In this document: positions 1 through 12,988 of the stretch, in pieces
How positions within the stretch are numbered: position 1 is the first letter of the stretch
Layout: each line of letters begins with the position of its first letter
Origin: Candidatus Stahliibacteriota bacterium
GTDB taxonomy: Bacteria > Hydrothermota > Tepidihabitantia > SM23-42
Direction: 5' to 3'
NCBI GenBank assembly: GCA_030602565.1
Contig: JAUVZL010000002.1
Span: forward strand, 1-64,000
Length of the DNA: 64,000 nucleotides
Translations under genes and position numbers: made by a program
The notes under the pieces: model-generated
What the model saw: only the letters and a program-made list of their open reading frames with translations
What the model was told of the DNA's origin: nothing
Database searches by the model: none

Positions 1-99
1 ATTGGGACGGAAAGAGGAAATTATTAACAAGCGGTATGAAAAACTGGCCTTGGCAAGGGCGAAAAGGATGGAATATAATAACCAATTTTCCACCTTAAA

Positions 100-951
100 T
101 CAGACCCCTGTTTTGTCCGATTCCCGCTGAACCAGTACAGACAATAGTACAACTATCTTACCAAATAATTCAAGACCCAATTTATTTTGCCATTCTTCAA
201 TATCAATTTTAATAACATCAGGTTCTGGCTTTCGATTACTATATTCAAGCATTAGTACTTCTTCAACACTATTTATTAAAGTTTTCGACATTCCATCGGC
301 TTTCTGTAATATATCCTCACATGTGCCATTATATTCTCCTTTTAATAATTCATAGTAAGCCTTTATTATTTCTCGCTTCTCTTTAGAAAACTCATGGTTA
401 TCCATTTGTTCCCTTGTTCTCAACAACTTATCATCTTTGAAATACGCTTCATATCGTATCGCCAATATTAACTGCTTCAATACCCATTTGTGTAGTTTTC
501 TTTCAATGAGTGATGCTTCATCTTCATTCGCTGTGATGTAATGTCGGACACTCATTAATACAAATGCAGAAAGTCTTCCTATTTCTAACAATATCTCTTT
601 CTTTGTTGGTGTAGGTAATTTTAGTTCTCCATGCAATATTTTTCCATCAAGAAAAAACTGTATTGGACTAAATTGATAAGTAAACGATTGACTGGATACT
701 TCTATAAATGTTGTGCATTGTGGATTTATTTCAGGTCTATTGCCAACATTCTGGATTATCTCCCCAACCTGTTTTAAATATTCCATTTTTATTTCTTTAA
801 AGAACACCCAAAGGTCGATGTCACTTTTATCGTGATAATCATCTCGACAAAAACTCCCTGTAAGCAATATACATTCAACATTATCACTAAAAGCGTCCAA
901 TATACTGTTTTTAAAATTATCTATTCTTTTTTCAACTTCCTTGAAATTCAT
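100..951 (-). CDS. Nucleotidyltransferase-fold protein with helical C-terminal region
   Basis: GSFCRDDYHDKSDIDLWVF matches the GSxxR..SDIDL nucleotidyltransferase motif; 283 aa. Confidence 0.75.
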   Translation of the reverse strand: MNFKEVEKRIDNFKNSILDAFSDNVECILLTGSFCRDDYHDKSDIDLWVFFKEIKMEYLKQVGEIIQNVGNRPEINPQCTTFIEVSSQSFTYQFSPIQFFLDGKILHGELKLPTPTKKEILLEIGRLSAFVLMSVRHYITANEDEASLIERKLHKWVLKQLILAIRYEAYFKDDKLLRTREQMDNHEFSKEKREIIKAYYELLKGEYNGTCEDILQKADGMSKTLINSVEEVLMLEYSNRKPEPDVIKIDIEEWQNKLGLELFGKIVVLLSVLVQRESDKTGV

Positions 952-1040
952 TCCATAAACTCCACCCCTTGCTGTATCTTCAAAGCATCTTCAGCAGTCA
1001 ATGTTGATAGGTACCTCATGGTCATAACTAGACTCACAGA
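948..1040 (-). pseudogene. C-terminal remnant of a tyrosine recombinase (30 codons)
   Basis: Translates to SVSLVMTMRYLSTLTAEDALKIQQGVEFME*; about 19/26 identical to the end of ORF 4406..4699; stop overlaps the ATG at 951 (ATGA). Confidence 0.75.
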
Positions 1041-1049
1041 CTAATCTCC

Positions 1050-4000
1050 CTAAATATTCAATATATATCGACAATCTGGATATCCTTTGCATCCCAAAAG
1101 TTGTTTACCCCTTTGTATGGTCTTGCTGATGATCGGCTTACCACATTTTGGGCACTTCTTATCTCTGTCATCCAATAACGCCAATATTTTCTCACCTGGC
1201 ACATATTTAAAGTGGTGCAATTCTCCTGTGCTACAATGATATGCTAAACATCGTTGCCTCGTCGAATAGAACGCCTCAATTGGCTTAAAGCATTTAGGAC
1301 AAAGACCATTATTTTCCGAATTGAGTTTCTGTAGAATTTGCATACGACGTTCAATTTGTTTGGTTCGTTGAAAAAAATCATCCAAACCATGTAAACGTTT
1401 GTACTGATCTGTAACGTCTTTATGCATTATTCTAATCATTGACTCCGATGTGTAGCCACCATGTGACAGGGAGTTTAGACTGCCATCCCAGGTAATAATA
1501 TTATCTATAACAATAATTTTTTCATGCATGATTCTTCTTGTGCTTTCTAATACTTTCACCCCTATCTTACGTAGTTCCTCAATTGTCGCCTTAACATCAC
1601 CGAACGAGAAATTTCTTTGTCGACTCGCTCTTCTCGTATATACTCCAATTTTTACTCCTTGCTTTGCTTTCGCATAAAATAAATCCATGAATTTTGCAAC
1701 ACGCTTATCTGTCAGAAAAGGACTACATATGATTATACTCTCCTGGGCTTCCTCAATGTCCTTTCGAAATCGTGAATCAAAATTCTTATGTGTATAAAGT
1801 CCATATGTTTCTGGCAGTTTATTTTGAGTATATGGGTAAAGCAATTTATCAGCCTGTATCACCTGATCGGCATCAATTGGACATGTACTTTCAGAAACAT
1901 AGCATACTTCATAATTTTTCTTTATATAATTAAGGACAGAAAGCACAAGTCTTGATTTCTCAGATGACTTTTTCTTGAAATAATCATAATTACAGATAAT
2001 ATGTATCTCGTTTTTTGCTCGGGATAATGCAACATTGAGCAATCGTATTCCATCAATACCCAGAAATGGTTTTCCTAAATATCTAAGAGGGTTCCCGTCA
2101 ACAAAATCAAGAATTAATCTGTTGGCTTCACGTCCTTGAAACTGATAAATACTCGATACAGTTATTTGATGTGACAATTGCTTTTGAGAATCAAGAAGCG
2201 TTTTCAATAATCTCGCTTGTTCTCTATATGGCGTAATAATTGTTGTCTTTTCTCTTCGAGAATTTCCTCGCCGATCATCGACTACAACCTTTTCAGTTTT
2301 CCGACGACCTTTGGCTATTTTCTTTGCTATTTGAAGAGTCAATAAAGCCTGTCTGACATTGTAATGCGACCAACTTATACTTCGCGAACACCACGGATTC
2401 CATTGAGAAGTATCGTACAGACAAATACGTGTTTTATCACTAATTTTCCGATCTTCAACATCATTCAGATCAAGCCCTCTTTCTTGATATATAAACTTCT
2501 TAACAATACTACTAATTGAACTAATCATCCGACTTTGCAGAGTTAAGGCTTTTATTCTATTTGGATTTTTAATTCTAAGGTTGTCATCAACAATACCTGT
2601 CCTTAGATATATATCGGATCCCAGCCATTTTTTCGCATTCAAACACTCGTTATCTTGAGCATGTGATGCCCTACAGATTGGACCGAGTTGGCAAAAATCA
2701 CCGAAGATTACATATTTTTCCTTTGCTAACCCAGATGTAAAGAAAATTGAAGGTAGGGGAGCCATACTTGCTTCATCCAAAACAATAACATCATATTGCC
2801 CTTTGTATAATTCTGAAGCAATATGTACCTTTGTAAGTGTCGTTGCAACCACCTTTGCATCCAACAAAATCTTGGCTCTTATATTGTCAATTTCTTCTTG
2901 GATCATCTTAATTCTCTGTTCAATTTCTTGAACCAAATTTTCATGTGCTTCAATACTTTTTTCCAAAACTGTTGACTGTACATCACGAGGTAATTCAATA
3001 CCTCTATATTTATATATTTTGCCACATTTAAGGCACACAATCTCACCATCAGGTGAATTTACTGTTGTTCTTAACGTCGTGCCACAGGAAGGAGTTATAC
3101 ACATGATTTCTATATTTATTGAAGGTTGGCTAAGTGCCTCTGAAAGGACTTTTATTTTCTTTGTTAATGATATTAAACGATGTTCTTGATCTTGAATAGT
3201 TTTTTGAATATCGTTTCTCAATGTTCTGGCATTGTTTAACTCAATTATCCTATCATTCTTTAGTGATTCTAACTTTTGAGGATTTAGCCCTAGGACAAAT
3301 TTCTTTAATGCATTCGAGTCATTTGCTTTCTCTAATTTCAGTTCCAATTCATTAGTTTGTTTTTGCATTGATACAATTTCCCCATCAACTTGTAACAATT
3401 TTTTCTTCTCCGTATCATTGTTCATTGAAATTGTTGTCAATTCCTGCTTTATTTGATTCCGTAACAGATACATTTCATAATACTTCTTCCAAGTTTCATC
3501 TTTAATGTGTTCAAAAAAGCACTGCTTACGCAAATCCATCAATTGTTCATTTAATTCTGCTGTTTTATCTTTGCAGATCACTTTGAAATCAGACAGTTTT
3601 CGTATTTTATCCTTTGTATCACGAAATTCTGGAAATCTAACAATCTTATTCTCTTGAGTAATTTGATAGTCGTTTAGCAGTTCCACAACCTTCTCAATTG
3701 CATTATCAACTGCAACATTTGCATGAGCAACGACAAGAACTCGTTTGTCTTTTTTTAGTAAGGCTTCAACCATCCAGGCCAGGGTGGTGGTTTTTCCAGT
3801 TCCTGGTGGTCCCCAGATAAATGAAACATCCAAAGCCAAACTGTGCTTAATTGCTTGTATTTGATCTTTTCTGGGAAGACTTTGTCTACCATCCTTATCA
3901 ATCGGTGTTAATTGTGGGATTTCAACGTCATCGTATTCTGTTTTAGAGGAAGGATATAGGGTCTTATATGATAAATCCTTGTTGAACTGCAGTTCACCGT

Positions 4001-4409
4001 TTCTAATTTCGTTAAGTCGTTCTAATAACTTCTTTAAAAGCCATGTCGGCTCAAATGAAAGTTTGGCTTTCGGTATTGATTTACCAAAATTATTCTTCAA
4101 CATTATCTCAATCTCAAATCCTTCCAATCGGATAATCGTACCGGATACAATGTTGTCTTCGATAGCAACATTAACCTCACTGTCTTCAACTGGAGGTAAC
4201 AAAGTATTGAGTTCAAATTGATATATACTTGAATCCCCAATTGAACTAATCAATATACCATTATTTACTTCGATAGTATATGCTTTGCATTCTTTCTCTG
4301 TGTATGTTATCTCTTCATCGATACCACATTGAAGATCATTAACTAATGCATCAAATGGGGATAAACTAGCTGATTGCTGAGTTGTAGTTTTTGCTTTATT
4401 AAGCTTCAT
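1050..4409 (-). CDS. SF1 (Upf1/DNA2-like) helicase fused to a PLD nuclease domain and zinc ribbons
   Basis: Walker A WGPPGTGKTTT, VIVLDEAS, YQFQGREANR, NVALSRAK; HEKIIVID (HxKx4D) PLD motif; C-terminal CPKCGKPI...CKGYPDC topoisomerase-type zinc finger. Confidence 0.85.
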   Translation of the reverse strand: MKLNKAKTTTQQSASLSPFDALVNDLQCGIDEEITYTEKECKAYTIEVNNGILISSIGDSSIYQFELNTLLPPVEDSEVNVAIEDNIVSGTIIRLEGFEIEIMLKNNFGKSIPKAKLSFEPTWLLKKLLERLNEIRNGELQFNKDLSYKTLYPSSKTEYDDVEIPQLTPIDKDGRQSLPRKDQIQAIKHSLALDVSFIWGPPGTGKTTTLAWMVEALLKKDKRVLVVAHANVAVDNAIEKVVELLNDYQITQENKIVRFPEFRDTKDKIRKLSDFKVICKDKTAELNEQLMDLRKQCFFEHIKDETWKKYYEMYLLRNQIKQELTTISMNNDTEKKKLLQVDGEIVSMQKQTNELELKLEKANDSNALKKFVLGLNPQKLESLKNDRIIELNNARTLRNDIQKTIQDQEHRLISLTKKIKVLSEALSQPSINIEIMCITPSCGTTLRTTVNSPDGEIVCLKCGKIYKYRGIELPRDVQSTVLEKSIEAHENLVQEIEQRIKMIQEEIDNIRAKILLDAKVVATTLTKVHIASELYKGQYDVIVLDEASMAPLPSIFFTSGLAKEKYVIFGDFCQLGPICRASHAQDNECLNAKKWLGSDIYLRTGIVDDNLRIKNPNRIKALTLQSRMISSISSIVKKFIYQERGLDLNDVEDRKISDKTRICLYDTSQWNPWCSRSISWSHYNVRQALLTLQIAKKIAKGRRKTEKVVVDDRRGNSRREKTTIITPYREQARLLKTLLDSQKQLSHQITVSSIYQFQGREANRLILDFVDGNPLRYLGKPFLGIDGIRLLNVALSRAKNEIHIICNYDYFKKKSSEKSRLVLSVLNYIKKNYEVCYVSESTCPIDADQVIQADKLLYPYTQNKLPETYGLYTHKNFDSRFRKDIEEAQESIIICSPFLTDKRVAKFMDLFYAKAKQGVKIGVYTRRASRQRNFSFGDVKATIEELRKIGVKVLESTRRIMHEKIIVIDNIITWDGSLNSLSHGGYTSESMIRIMHKDVTDQYKRLHGLDDFFQRTKQIERRMQILQKLNSENNGLCPKCFKPIEAFYSTRQRCLAYHCSTGELHHFKYVPGEKILALLDDRDKKCPKCGKPIISKTIQRGKQLLGCKGYPDCRYILNI

Positions 4410-4699
4410 AATTTATTAAAATCAACCTGGTTTTGTATTCTGAGAGAATCTTCTGCACTCAGGGTACTTAAATATCTCATAGTCATCATGAGTGATGAAT
4501 GTCCAAGAAAAATTTGGAGACTTTTAGGGTCAGTCTGACGCAATCTAAATATTGCTGAACTATGTCGCATGAGATGGGGAAATACCCTTTTCTGCAATCC
4601 TGCCTTCTTAGCCACCTGTTTTATCATTTTCCAAGCAGTTTGGCGAATTATGGGAAATATACGTTCATCCATATCTACCAATTTTGTTGCATATTCCAT
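4406..4699 (-). pseudogene. Truncated tyrosine recombinase (C-terminal part of catalytic domain)
   Basis: HLMRH, LGHSS and MRYLST (catalytic Tyr) present; N-terminal domain and first catalytic Arg missing. Confidence 0.75.
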
Positions 4700-5212
4700 T
4701 TACTGTTTGAAGGTACTTTTTCGATACTTTTCCAATATCACATCCCTATTTCTTCCACATTTCTTGCAGAGTTGCATTATCTTCTTGCCTTTTCCTTTTA
4801 TTGTATTCCGACGACCACACACACATACATATTCATTACCATCTACATACGAAAATCCTATAGCATCCTTTCCAGCAATTGCTTTAAGTTCTGCTAATTC
4901 TGTTTGCGAAATTTCTGTTGGTTCTTTTTCGTTTTCCTCTTTCTTCAGTTCTCTGCCACAATATCTGCAGACTATTGCTTCACGCTTTATCAATTCAGCA
5001 CAGTAGGGACACTTTTTCATAGTGCCACTTTGAATTTGGTCTTTTTCCTCTTTTGCAATATCTGATTTCAATACCAGCCCAATAATAAATCCTACAAGTG
5101 GGCTTAACAGTAAGGAGACCAGAAAACCACCCCCAAAACCTCTTCCCTTACTTTGCCAGAAAGCACCCACGAGTCCAGCAAAAACAACCCATAATGTTAT
5201 ACCTACTATCAT
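4700..5212 (-). CDS. Membrane protein with C-terminal zinc ribbons
   Basis: N-terminal TM segments; [24 protein letters not shown]; second CxC...CxxC. Confidence 0.7.
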   Translation of the reverse strand: MIVGITLWVVFAGLVGAFWQSKGRGFGGGFLVSLLLSPLVGFIIGLVLKSDIAKEEKDQIQSGTMKKCPYCAELIKREAIVCRYCGRELKKEENEKEPTEISQTELAELKAIAGKDAIGFSYVDGNEYVCVCGRRNTIKGKGKKIMQLCKKCGRNRDVILEKYRKSTFKQ

Positions 5213-5329
5213 AAAACAACCTTTCCTTTCTTTGCTTCTCCTTCAGCAAAAACTTCTTTTCTCTCCATTTTTCTCCTTCCAGACCCACATACAGGGTCTA
5301 AAAGTAGACATTCCTGTCTAGACTGTTCA

Positions 5330-5821
5330 CTAAAATCTCATTATTTTTTTCATCATGGTTACTTCAAAATTAATAAGCCACTTGCCATCGCAGTTTGTAA
5401 AATACCACTTATCGATTGATTCAGAGTATCCTGGAGAATTTGGTATACATTTCACCTCTAAAACCCTTAAGTTAAGACCCTCTTCCTCTTCATTAATAAC
5501 AATAAATTCAGCATCAGTAAACATTATGTCTATGAATCCATTTAACATTTCTCTCAATTCAACTGCCTCACGACTACTGTTGTTAATATTGGCTTTCACT
5601 TTCTTATCCATTTTAATTGCTTCTTCTTCACTATGTCCACGATTCTGATACACAATGGTTAAATCAATACATCTAACGAACTCCTGAAAATTCTTTGCTT
5701 TTGCAGATTGGACAAGTTTGTTCCAAGTTTTTTCTGCTGAAGAATATTGGTTCGATTTACCCTGACAATATACACACAATAATAGAGTTAATAGGACTAA
5801 TATTTTAGTGGTTATTTTCAC
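5330..5821 (-). CDS. Putative lipoprotein of unknown function
   Basis: Signal peptide/lipobox-like LLLCVYCQG; 163 aa. Confidence 0.55.
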   Translation of the reverse strand: MKITTKILVLLTLLLCVYCQGKSNQYSSAEKTWNKLVQSAKAKNFQEFVRCIDLTIVYQNRGHSEEEAIKMDKKVKANINNSSREAVELREMLNGFIDIMFTDAEFIVINEEEEGLNLRVLEVKCIPNSPGYSESIDKWYFTNCDGKWLINFEVTMMKKIMRF

Positions 5822-5935
5822 CTTTACTCCCTGTTATTTTCTTTTTATGATAGATTATCATTACTCCAATCATGCTTATCAATATGCCTTTTCTACTCTG
5901 CAAGTTTTCCCCTTTCCTTCTACAACGTTCTACTT

Positions 5936-6358
5936 TCAGTTCTCATCTACAAATAGACTTTTGTGGCACTTTGGGCATTCTGTCTCATTCGCTGACTTCA
6001 AACCAACGTTACAGAATGGACAATGAAAGAATTTGCCACTTTTGCTTATCTTTACAATTGATTTGTTACCTTTAAACTCATCATCTAATTCTTTGCCACA
6101 GTATCTACATATAATTGCTTCGCGCTTCACGACTTCTGCACAATAAGGACATTTTTTCATGCCACCTTCACTAACCTGCTTTGCTTCAATTGCCCTAATA
6201 TTGGGTCGCATGGCAATTCCAATAATAAAACCAATGAGTGGACTCAAAAATATACTACAAAGCAAACCACCTGCAAAACCATGACCTCTACTTTGCCATA
6301 ATGCACCTACTCCTGCTGATAAGCCAACCCAAAACAGCAGTAAAAATATCAACTCCAT
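5936..6358 (-). CDS. Membrane/zinc-ribbon protein, paralogue of 4700..5212
   Basis: [11 protein letters not shown] and [24 protein letters not shown] align with the neighbour. Confidence 0.7.
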
Positions 6359-6540
6359 CTTTCCCCCTTTTCTACTATATATAATATTCTATACGTAAAT
6401 GTAAGTTAGTCAATGCACCAGTTCCTGTTTTTATTGAGTTCCCTGTTTTTTGACCCCAAAATACTTTTCAGCAATGATTTTATCGAGACTTTCAGCATCT
6501 CAATTCTTTCGATATCTTCGACTTGACATTTCCCGATTAA

Positions 6541-7015
6541 CACCCTCACCCCTACCCTCTCCCTCAAGGGAGAGGGAAATATTGTAATCACTGATATCTT
6601 TTTATTTATCTCTGTAATCGAAAAGCCCCCTTCGGGGCATTTAAATAACATCACTGTCCCGCTTGGCGGGATCCTCGATTTCCCTAAATAAAATTTAGTA
6701 ATGATAAATCGGGATAATCTTTCTGTAATCTCTGCTATCATTTGGTTTTCGAAGAAAACCAAGAAGCCAGCGTCCGGATTCGAACCGGAGACCTGCTGTT
6801 TACGAAACAGCTGCTCTGCCGACTGAGCTACGCTGGCATTCACTTACTCATCACATAGTTACTTTTACACCCCCACCTTTATCCTCCCCCTTCAAGGGAG
6901 AGGAATGAAAGGGAACGACTGAGCTACGCTGGCGTATTTTCATTATAGTCAGTAGGTCTGGGTTGTCAATGTTATTACACCCTCCCCTTTATCCCCTCCC
7001 TTCAAGGGAGGGGAA
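6541..7015. repeat. Three copies of a CCCTY-rich/CCTTCAAGGGAGG palindromic repeat
   Basis: Copies at about 6541-6579, 6870-6908 and 6976-7015; a related copy at about 21086-21136. Confidence 0.6.
6766..6837 (-). tRNA. tRNA-Thr (anticodon CGT)
   Basis: Reverse complement folds: gccagcg/cgctggc acceptor, gctgt-ttcgtaa-acagc anticodon arm, tccgg-ttcgaat-ccgga T arm. Confidence 0.9.
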
Positions 7016-10851: not shown

Positions 10852-11880
10852 GTGATTGAAGCCAAAGATATAAAGGCTTTTGGATACCGCATAGGTATTG
10901 ATGAAATCGGAATAACAACAGCTGAGCCATTTGACCAGGCGCTGGCAAAGTACAAGAAACAAAGAACCAAGGAGCTTTTCACTGACCGCCAACACAGGCA
11001 TCTTGAGGACACCAAACACTTTTATAATGTGCGCATTAAATTTCCCGAAGCCCGGTCAATAATCGCTGCATGTCAATGCTACCTCACTAATGAAAAAACC
11101 AACCTTTCAGAACCGGGTGATCCACACGGTCTTATTGCCCGGTACACCTGGCGCAATTACTATAAAGGTCTGAAAAACAGATTGCGCGAGCTGGCTCATT
11201 TTATAAAAGAAAAAACAGGCGCATCATTCCGCGTCTATTCAAACGGTCCAGTAGCTGAAAAACCCATTGCCGTGCGCAGCGGTATTGGTTATTACGGAAA
11301 ACACAGCGTCGTTGTTAACCAGACCTTTGGATCATGGATTGTCCTCGGTGAAATAATAACTGACATTGAAATTGAACCTGACAAGGCACTTGATATTAAC
11401 TGTGGTCAATGTGAGAAGTGTATTGATGCTTGCCCAACGCGTGCCATTGTTGCGCCCTACATTATAGACCGCCGGCGTTGCATTCAGGAACTTACAAACT
11501 GGTACGGCGTCCTGCCTGATGATATCGCTGAGGTTTGGGGCAATCGGCTATATGGTTGCACTGTATGCCAGGACGTGTGTCCGGTAAATTCTAAAGTGGC
11601 GGTGCGCCTCCCCTCGACTGACCTGGGTAGTGTCGGTTCTTCAATATCGCTACTCGACATTCTCAACATGTCGGAAAGTAAATACCGACAAAAATATCCA
11701 GACAACCAGATCACGGCGCGCTGGATCAATTTCAAAGCCATACAAAGAAACGCCCTCGTGTGTCTCGGCAATATCAAAGACAAACAAACCCTGCCCATTC
11801 TGGAGCGATTCAGCAAATCCAATGATGGAGTCTTTACAAAAACTGCACACTGGGCCATCGGCAAAATAAGAAATGCCTAG
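10852..11880 (+). CDS. queG: Epoxyqueuosine reductase
   Basis: CGQCEKCIDACPTRAI...CTVCQDVCPVN twin 4Fe-4S; GIGYYGKHS. Confidence 0.85.
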   Translation: MIEAKDIKAFGYRIGIDEIGITTAEPFDQALAKYKKQRTKELFTDRQHRHLEDTKHFYNVRIKFPEARSIIAACQCYLTNEKTNLSEPGDPHGLIARYTWRNYYKGLKNRLRELAHFIKEKTGASFRVYSNGPVAEKPIAVRSGIGYYGKHSVVVNQTFGSWIVLGEIITDIEIEPDKALDINCGQCEKCIDACPTRAIVAPYIIDRRRCIQELTNWYGVLPDDIAEVWGNRLYGCTVCQDVCPVNSKVAVRLPSTDLGSVGSSISLLDILNMSESKYRQKYPDNQITARWINFKAIQRNALVCLGNIKDKQTLPILERFSKSNDGVFTKTAHWAIGKIRNA

Positions 11881-12988
11881 TTTTGCGGAAAAAATAAGAA
11901 GCGTACTTATTAACTACAAACAAGCACCCGCCATGATATGGCGTCGTTGCAGCGCGACCTTGAGTTACCGCTTGTCAAACCTTGTAAGCCACCAGGCTTC
12001 ACCACCTGAAACCATTAATTTCTATCCTACTGATCGCTGCAATTTAAAATGCTCAATGTGTTTTGAGCGTCTCCGTAAACCACGGTCTGAAATGAAAATA
12101 TCAGACTGGCAGAAAATAATAAACCGGATGAAGAAATTCCAACCACGCATCCATCTGTCTGGTGGTGAACCATTTTTGTATCCGGACATCATTGAACTGA
12201 TATCATATATCAAAGCAAAAAATCTTTTCTTGGCGATTACAACAAACGGAACTTTTTTGAGTAAGTATGCTAATGATATTATTGTCTCAGGAGTAAACCG
12301 AATTCATATTTCAATTGATGGTCCTGAAAAAATACATGACCGAATCCGTGGTGTGCCTGGAACTTTCAAGCGCATTATGGAGGGGCTCAAGAGAATAAAA
12401 AAACTGCGTAAAGCCAGTCGCTTGTCGATTATCCGCATAAATTCCATGATCAATCTCACTGACCCAGCTGCCATGCAAGAAGTAATCAAGATTGCTTGCA
12501 ATATTGACGCAGACAGTATCCAGTTCCAACATCCCTTTTTTGTAGATTGCCAGAGTCTTACCAGCCACCGTTTCTTCCTGCAGAAAAACCTCGGGCTCGA
12601 TTTGAACTACTGGCAAAGTGCAGATATCGATTGTGATAAGCCCAAAGATTTTGCGAATGCCATGGATGTCATTCGTGATCTGCGTGCGGAAAAAAGTATC
12701 CCGGTAAAGGTATTTCCAGAATTATCCGCACCGCAACTTCAAGCATATTACGGTGCAGCAAATGATTTTTATGAAATCTACCCGGGGGAATGCCGCGCCA
12801 TGTGGAATACTGCAACGATACTCCCGTCAGGATACGTGGAGTCGTGCCCTGATTATGTCATAGGTAATTGCAAACAATCCTCGTTCCTCACGCTCTGGAA
12901 TAATAATAAAATGAAAGAGTTGCGCCAACGCATACGGAGCAGACATTTCTTCACGGTCTGCCGTGGTTGCTGCTTCTTCTACGATTAA
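11873..12988 (+). CDS. Radical SAM/SPASM-type protein
   Basis: CNLKCSMCFE; HLSGGEPFLYPD; C-terminal Cys-rich region. Confidence 0.8.
   Translation: MPSFAEKIRSVLINYKQAPAMIWRRCSATLSYRLSNLVSHQASPPETINFYPTDRCNLKCSMCFERLRKPRSEMKISDWQKIINRMKKFQPRIHLSGGEPFLYPDIIELISYIKAKNLFLAITTNGTFLSKYANDIIVSGVNRIHISIDGPEKIHDRIRGVPGTFKRIMEGLKRIKKLRKASRLSIIRINSMINLTDPAAMQEVIKIACNIDADSIQFQHPFFVDCQSLTSHRFFLQKNLGLDLNYWQSADIDCDKPKDFANAMDVIRDLRAEKSIPVKVFPELSAPQLQAYYGAANDFYEIYPGECRAMWNTATILPSGYVESCPDYVIGNCKQSSFLTLWNNNKMKELRQRIRSRHFFTVCRGCCFFYD

Follow-up and report, generated by a model that had tools for sequence, protein, structure and literature searches.

The question raised by the left end of this contig of Candidatus Stahliibacteriota is why the C-terminal ends of two different tyrosine recombinases stand directly in front of two other genes, each with its stop codon overlapping the start of the gene behind it. 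The window, the whole stretch of DNA that was analysed, is 64,000 nucleotides long. In the initial annotation, the tails were taken to descend from full recombinases translationally coupled to exchangeable cargo, and the site was read either as a decayed stack of recombinase-cargo modules or as a target site for cargo arriving at the 3′ end of the recombinase. The ancestral recombinases and the decay have held up under analysis; the exchangeable modules and the landing site have not. The locus is probably a horizontally acquired, partly decayed, operon-like island of defence type, with truncated recombinases remaining as short ORFs at which re-initiation would feed the genes behind them. Its features are as follows.

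1..139, plus strand: end of a multicopy insertion sequence (IS), interrupting the island and terminating the contig (10 near-identical copies; flanks diverge after base 139)
100..951, minus strand: Pol-beta/MNT-type nucleotidyltransferase (Polbeta 2.5e-6, NTP_transf_2 5.8e-6)
948..1043 including the stop, minus strand: 30-codon C-terminal tyrosine recombinase remnant, SVSLVMTMRYLSTLTAEDALKIQQGVEFME and stop; ATGA overlap with the nucleotidyltransferase start
1050..4409, minus strand: SF1 helicase with PLD nuclease and topoisomerase-type zinc ribbon, 1119 aa (AAA_11/AAA_12/PLDc_2/Zn_ribbon_Top1)
4406..4699, minus strand: catalytic domain of a tyrosine recombinase, C-terminal half, 97 codons; ATGA overlap with the helicase start
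4700..5212, minus strand: zinc-ribbon membrane-type protein (Zn_ribbon_3 8.6e-9)
5330-5821, minus strand: short ORF with a signal-like start
5936..6358, minus strand: zinc-ribbon paralogue of the 4700-5212 gene (Zn_ribbon_3 1.8e-8)
6765..6837, minus strand: tRNA-Thr (CGT) (ARAGORN; Rfam RF00005, 69.3 bits)

The 97-aa ORF matches the Pfam profile PF00589 (Phage_integrase) at 1.9e-11 and 44.5 bits, against a cut-off of 27.1, over positions 104-167 of the 172 in the profile. The 30-aa tail alone gives no Pfam match, and its similarity to recombinases is instead seen in its match to a further recombinase on contig C82 of the same genome (19/23 identical, E=5e-8 in a local search) and to the 97-aa ORF (1.2e-5 in a search over the whole of its own genome). 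The two tails are identical at 19/26 aligned codons, the figure first given for them. They end in ..DFNKL-TGA (97-aa ORF) and ..VEFME-TGA (30-codon tail). The 97-aa ORF is a partial catalytic domain and the 30-aa tail retains little beyond the Tyr region; as half or more of the domain is gone, no recombinase activity is expected of the fragments. Upstream of the 97-aa remnant, the similarity may extend across the TAA and on into the zinc-ribbon ORF, with an IKGKGKK match and a PF00589 match reaching 4768. Compared with the post-stop part alone, this extension gains less than 2 bits, and its residues are also those of a CxC..CxxC ribbon.

The C82 recombinase belongs to the same subfamily: its open frame runs over 186 codons, shares 63% identity with the 97-aa ORF and matches PF00589 with 71.9 bits (cut-off 27.1). 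The frame begins beside a 28-bp repeat which flanks a REP-type transposase gene, and its N-terminal part is therefore missing there too. A 39-codon ORF with a TTG start overlaps its stop. In all three members the 5′ end is missing and an overlapped 3′ end remains, a regularity which is mildly unusual and, being drawn from three cases in one genome, no more than suggestive.

In a tree of short, partial rows that also took in plasmid relatives and the Xer-like genes of 150 related genomes, the three members form one clade with a long stem (support 100/98), separate from both of these groups. Synonymous differences among the three are saturated (pS 0.67-1.06) at a pN of 0.07-0.26, in keeping with the original view that the tails are not a recent duplication. 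With saturated synonymous sites and a dN of 0.08-0.32, the three are old recombinases which evolved separately, as working proteins, long before their truncation. The profile match, the constraint at the protein level and the single three-member clade all support full-length recombinases as the ancestors.

A full-length member of the clade was not found in the genome itself, the 150 related genomes, viral contigs, phages or plasmids. The related genomes contain ordinary Xer-like genes only, the viral contigs held no homologue of the clade, and the phages and plasmids held only relatives below 40% identity. A peptide-pattern search of genome contigs gave two weak matches in Bacteroidota; such patterns reach close relatives only.

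Among known recombinases, the clade resembles XerA, XerC and XerD (NF040815, TIGR02225 and TIGR02224; PF00589), with which it has profile matches and the C-terminal signature H..RH ... LGHSS ... MTMRYL in common. It differs from them in that its members are truncated, score well below the equivalog cut-offs and form a long-stem clade of their own, and its ..L[ST]AE[DE]xLxIQ tail was not found in the relatives compared. In plasmid recombinase genes of Photobacterium and Salinivibrio, the stop likewise shares 4 bases with the start of the following gene, but there the downstream gene is a transposase and identity to the clade is 31-35%. This recombinase-transposase arrangement is presumably IS91-like. 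A search of the genome for Y2 transposases gave no match, and neither did the controls of that search.

Two further features of contig C82 (locus L006) are recorded here. A 162-bp stretch with two GTTCGC..GCGAAC inverted pairs is present in two copies, 83% identical, at 1529-1689 and 11588-11749. One copy directly precedes a 183-aa minimal tyrosine recombinase (11710-12261) and the other precedes a truncated version of the same gene; the stretch may be an attachment or control site of the 183-aa recombinase. At 6621-6719 on the minus strand, an attC-like hairpin (ATCTAAC ... GTTAGAC, folding z-score -4.7) lies behind a small CxxCxGxG-repeat gene, and together the two are possibly an integron-type gene cassette. 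A second, partial match to the hairpin lies on contig C50. Scanning the window for attC sites gave no match, and the same scan also missed the hairpin on C82.

The junctions at both fragments are as initially annotated. The TGA of the 97-aa ORF lies within an ATGA shared with the helicase start, and that of the 30-codon tail within an ATGA shared with the nucleotidyltransferase start. Upstream, the 97-aa ORF starts straight after the stop of the zinc-ribbon ORF and in the same frame (TAA-ATG), and the 30-aa tail lies in the helicase frame just past the helicase end. Purine-rich stretches inside the recombinase codons precede the downstream starts, read directly as GGGGTGGAG before the nucleotidyltransferase and AGGAGG on C82, and these can act as putative ribosome-binding sequences. 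The junctions therefore have what would be the anatomy of translational coupling, and it is as anatomy only that this part of the earlier reading stands: in a simple gene call over the window, NTGA overlaps occur at 10 of the 49 junctions between same-strand neighbours (~20%), and since they are this common, selection for coupling is not needed to account for them. No terminator-like site was found from 6358 to 100 on the minus strand, and the genes of this run may be co-transcribed.

Within 1-6500, the minus-strand order is zinc-ribbon gene, signal-like ORF, zinc-ribbon gene, 97-codon fragment, helicase-PLD gene, 30-codon tail and nucleotidyltransferase gene. The two zinc-ribbon membrane-type genes match each other at the DNA level (6089-6310 with 4949-5170, 69%). 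In the helicase protein, AAA_11/AAA_12 occupy 181-808 and PLDc_2 occupies 883-1005. Against PADLOC it scores best with MkoA (1.1e-52), over the helicase part, and second with MkoC (1e-42). As in the anti-phage system Mokosh type II, where MkoC combines the two, an SF1 helicase and a PLD nuclease are found here in a single protein, whereas the C-terminal topoisomerase-type zinc ribbon is an addition. The protein thus resembles the Mokosh defence proteins MkoA and MkoC, its membership being predicted from profile similarity only. Close homologues are rare, with two other matches below 1e-50 among 147 genomes of the phylum. The last ~13 codons of the nucleotidyltransferase, including the stop (100-139), derive from the inserted IS as judged from its aligned copies, and the native 3′ end is gone.

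The setting of these genes is that of an island. The GC content is 34-36% in 1-6000 and mostly 40-46% beyond the tRNA, to its right. At least 10 near-identical copies of the IS at the contig edge occur in the genome, many of them at contig ends. The one sister genome whose contig spans the site and so allows its content to be compared (G003) retains the tRNA together with the genes on its right, at ~94% identity, and has unrelated genes on the island side. In another genome, G013, housekeeping genes are found at the island side. Because both carry other genes there, the 6.5-kb stretch beside tRNA-Thr is, by comparison of gene content, an accessory site. Its description as decayed is borne out by the lost 5′ ends, by the IS which cuts the island edge and by a content unlike that of the one comparable sister genome.

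Tycheposons are one kind of tRNA-side genomic island, and such islands are likewise variable, low-GC regions which adjoin a tRNA and contain tyrosine-recombinase genes and cargo. The present locus differs from them in that no attachment repeat pair was found (1-6760 and C82) and in that the recombinases are remnants situated away from the tRNA. No repeat of the tRNA 3′ end occurs in 1-6760 or on C82, the far island side lying beyond the assembled contig, and the assembled part of the island (1-6550) contains no intact integrase. As a separate observation, 18 bp of the 5′ end of tRNA-Thr (6820-6837) are repeated exactly at 6916-6933, ~96 bp upstream of the tRNA, and a closely similar copy of this repeat is present in sister genome G003.

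A course of events can be proposed which would account for this arrangement. Two or more Xer/integrase-type tyrosine recombinases from a single orphan clade would once have been present in the island, each probably forming an operon with its downstream gene. Subsequent deletions would have taken the 5′ parts, fusing the leftover 3′ ends to whichever gene now stands upstream. The co-directional run that survived would read zinc-ribbon gene, recombinase fragment (joined by TAA-ATG), helicase-PLD gene (ATGA), a possible GTG restart, recombinase tail and nucleotidyltransferase gene (ATGA). The fragments may be retained for their ribosome-binding sequence and stop/start overlap, by which ribosomes re-initiating there would gain access to the next gene. 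Alternatively, not enough time may have passed for their loss.

Other readings of the locus differ in what they make of the overlaps. If the recombinases belonged to a mobile-element family in which the 3′ end is always coupled to exchangeable cargo, the locus would be a tandem stack of such elements that later decayed. All three clade members in the genome do overlap different downstream ORFs, and annotated transposase genes overlap the two distant plasmid recombinases by 4 bases (Photobacterium, 3558/3561; Salinivibrio, 3049/3052). This reading is nevertheless unlikely: none of the searches, from the genome itself to the plasmids, recovered an intact module, the other plasmid relatives are uncoupled, and NTGA overlaps are common in the window. 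The cargo itself also speaks against it, as no recombinase lies upstream of the three helicase homologues with a readable upstream region (on plasmids of Aulosira and Cytobacillus and in genome G067; the homologue in G096 runs off its contig). A bolder version is very doubtful, namely that an undescribed recombinase clade always carries cargo by 3′ translational coupling and that its tails, after inactivation, became standing leader peptides of defence genes. Nothing relevant was found in the literature on coupled recombinase-defence modules or on integrase remnants.

An att site at the 3′ end of the recombinase gene, with cargo inserting precisely at the stop codon, is highly improbable. The cargo does start exactly at the stop codon, twice, and each fragment follows shortly after the end of the gene before it. 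Against this, the saturated synonymous positions of the tails argue that the DNA is not conserved, as a conserved attachment sequence would hold synonymous positions too. Moreover, no direct repeats and no shared words above chance occur at the breakpoints, one 22-nt match being two overlapping slices of the query, and the upstream breakpoints are unlike (97 against 30 codons). That the fragments are plain junk, old recombinase pseudogenes with coincidental overlaps and no present role, would fit the IS-rich, fragmented surroundings and the frequency of NTGA overlaps among same-strand pairs. It is distinctly unlikely all the same, given that the fragments are still open, that both overlaps are exact and that the third copy overlaps its neighbour too. 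The partly decayed, operon-like island remains the preferred reading.

On this preferred reading, the recombinase remnants, real and odd as they are, look like mobile-element decay of an ordinary kind. Should the tails not be kept for coupling, the locus would be a clear case of ordinary island decay and a caution against taking ATGA overlaps as evidence of modules. If they are kept for coupling, defence genes would have gained regulatory sequence from mobile-element debris, and past integration events could be traced by short recombinase tails.
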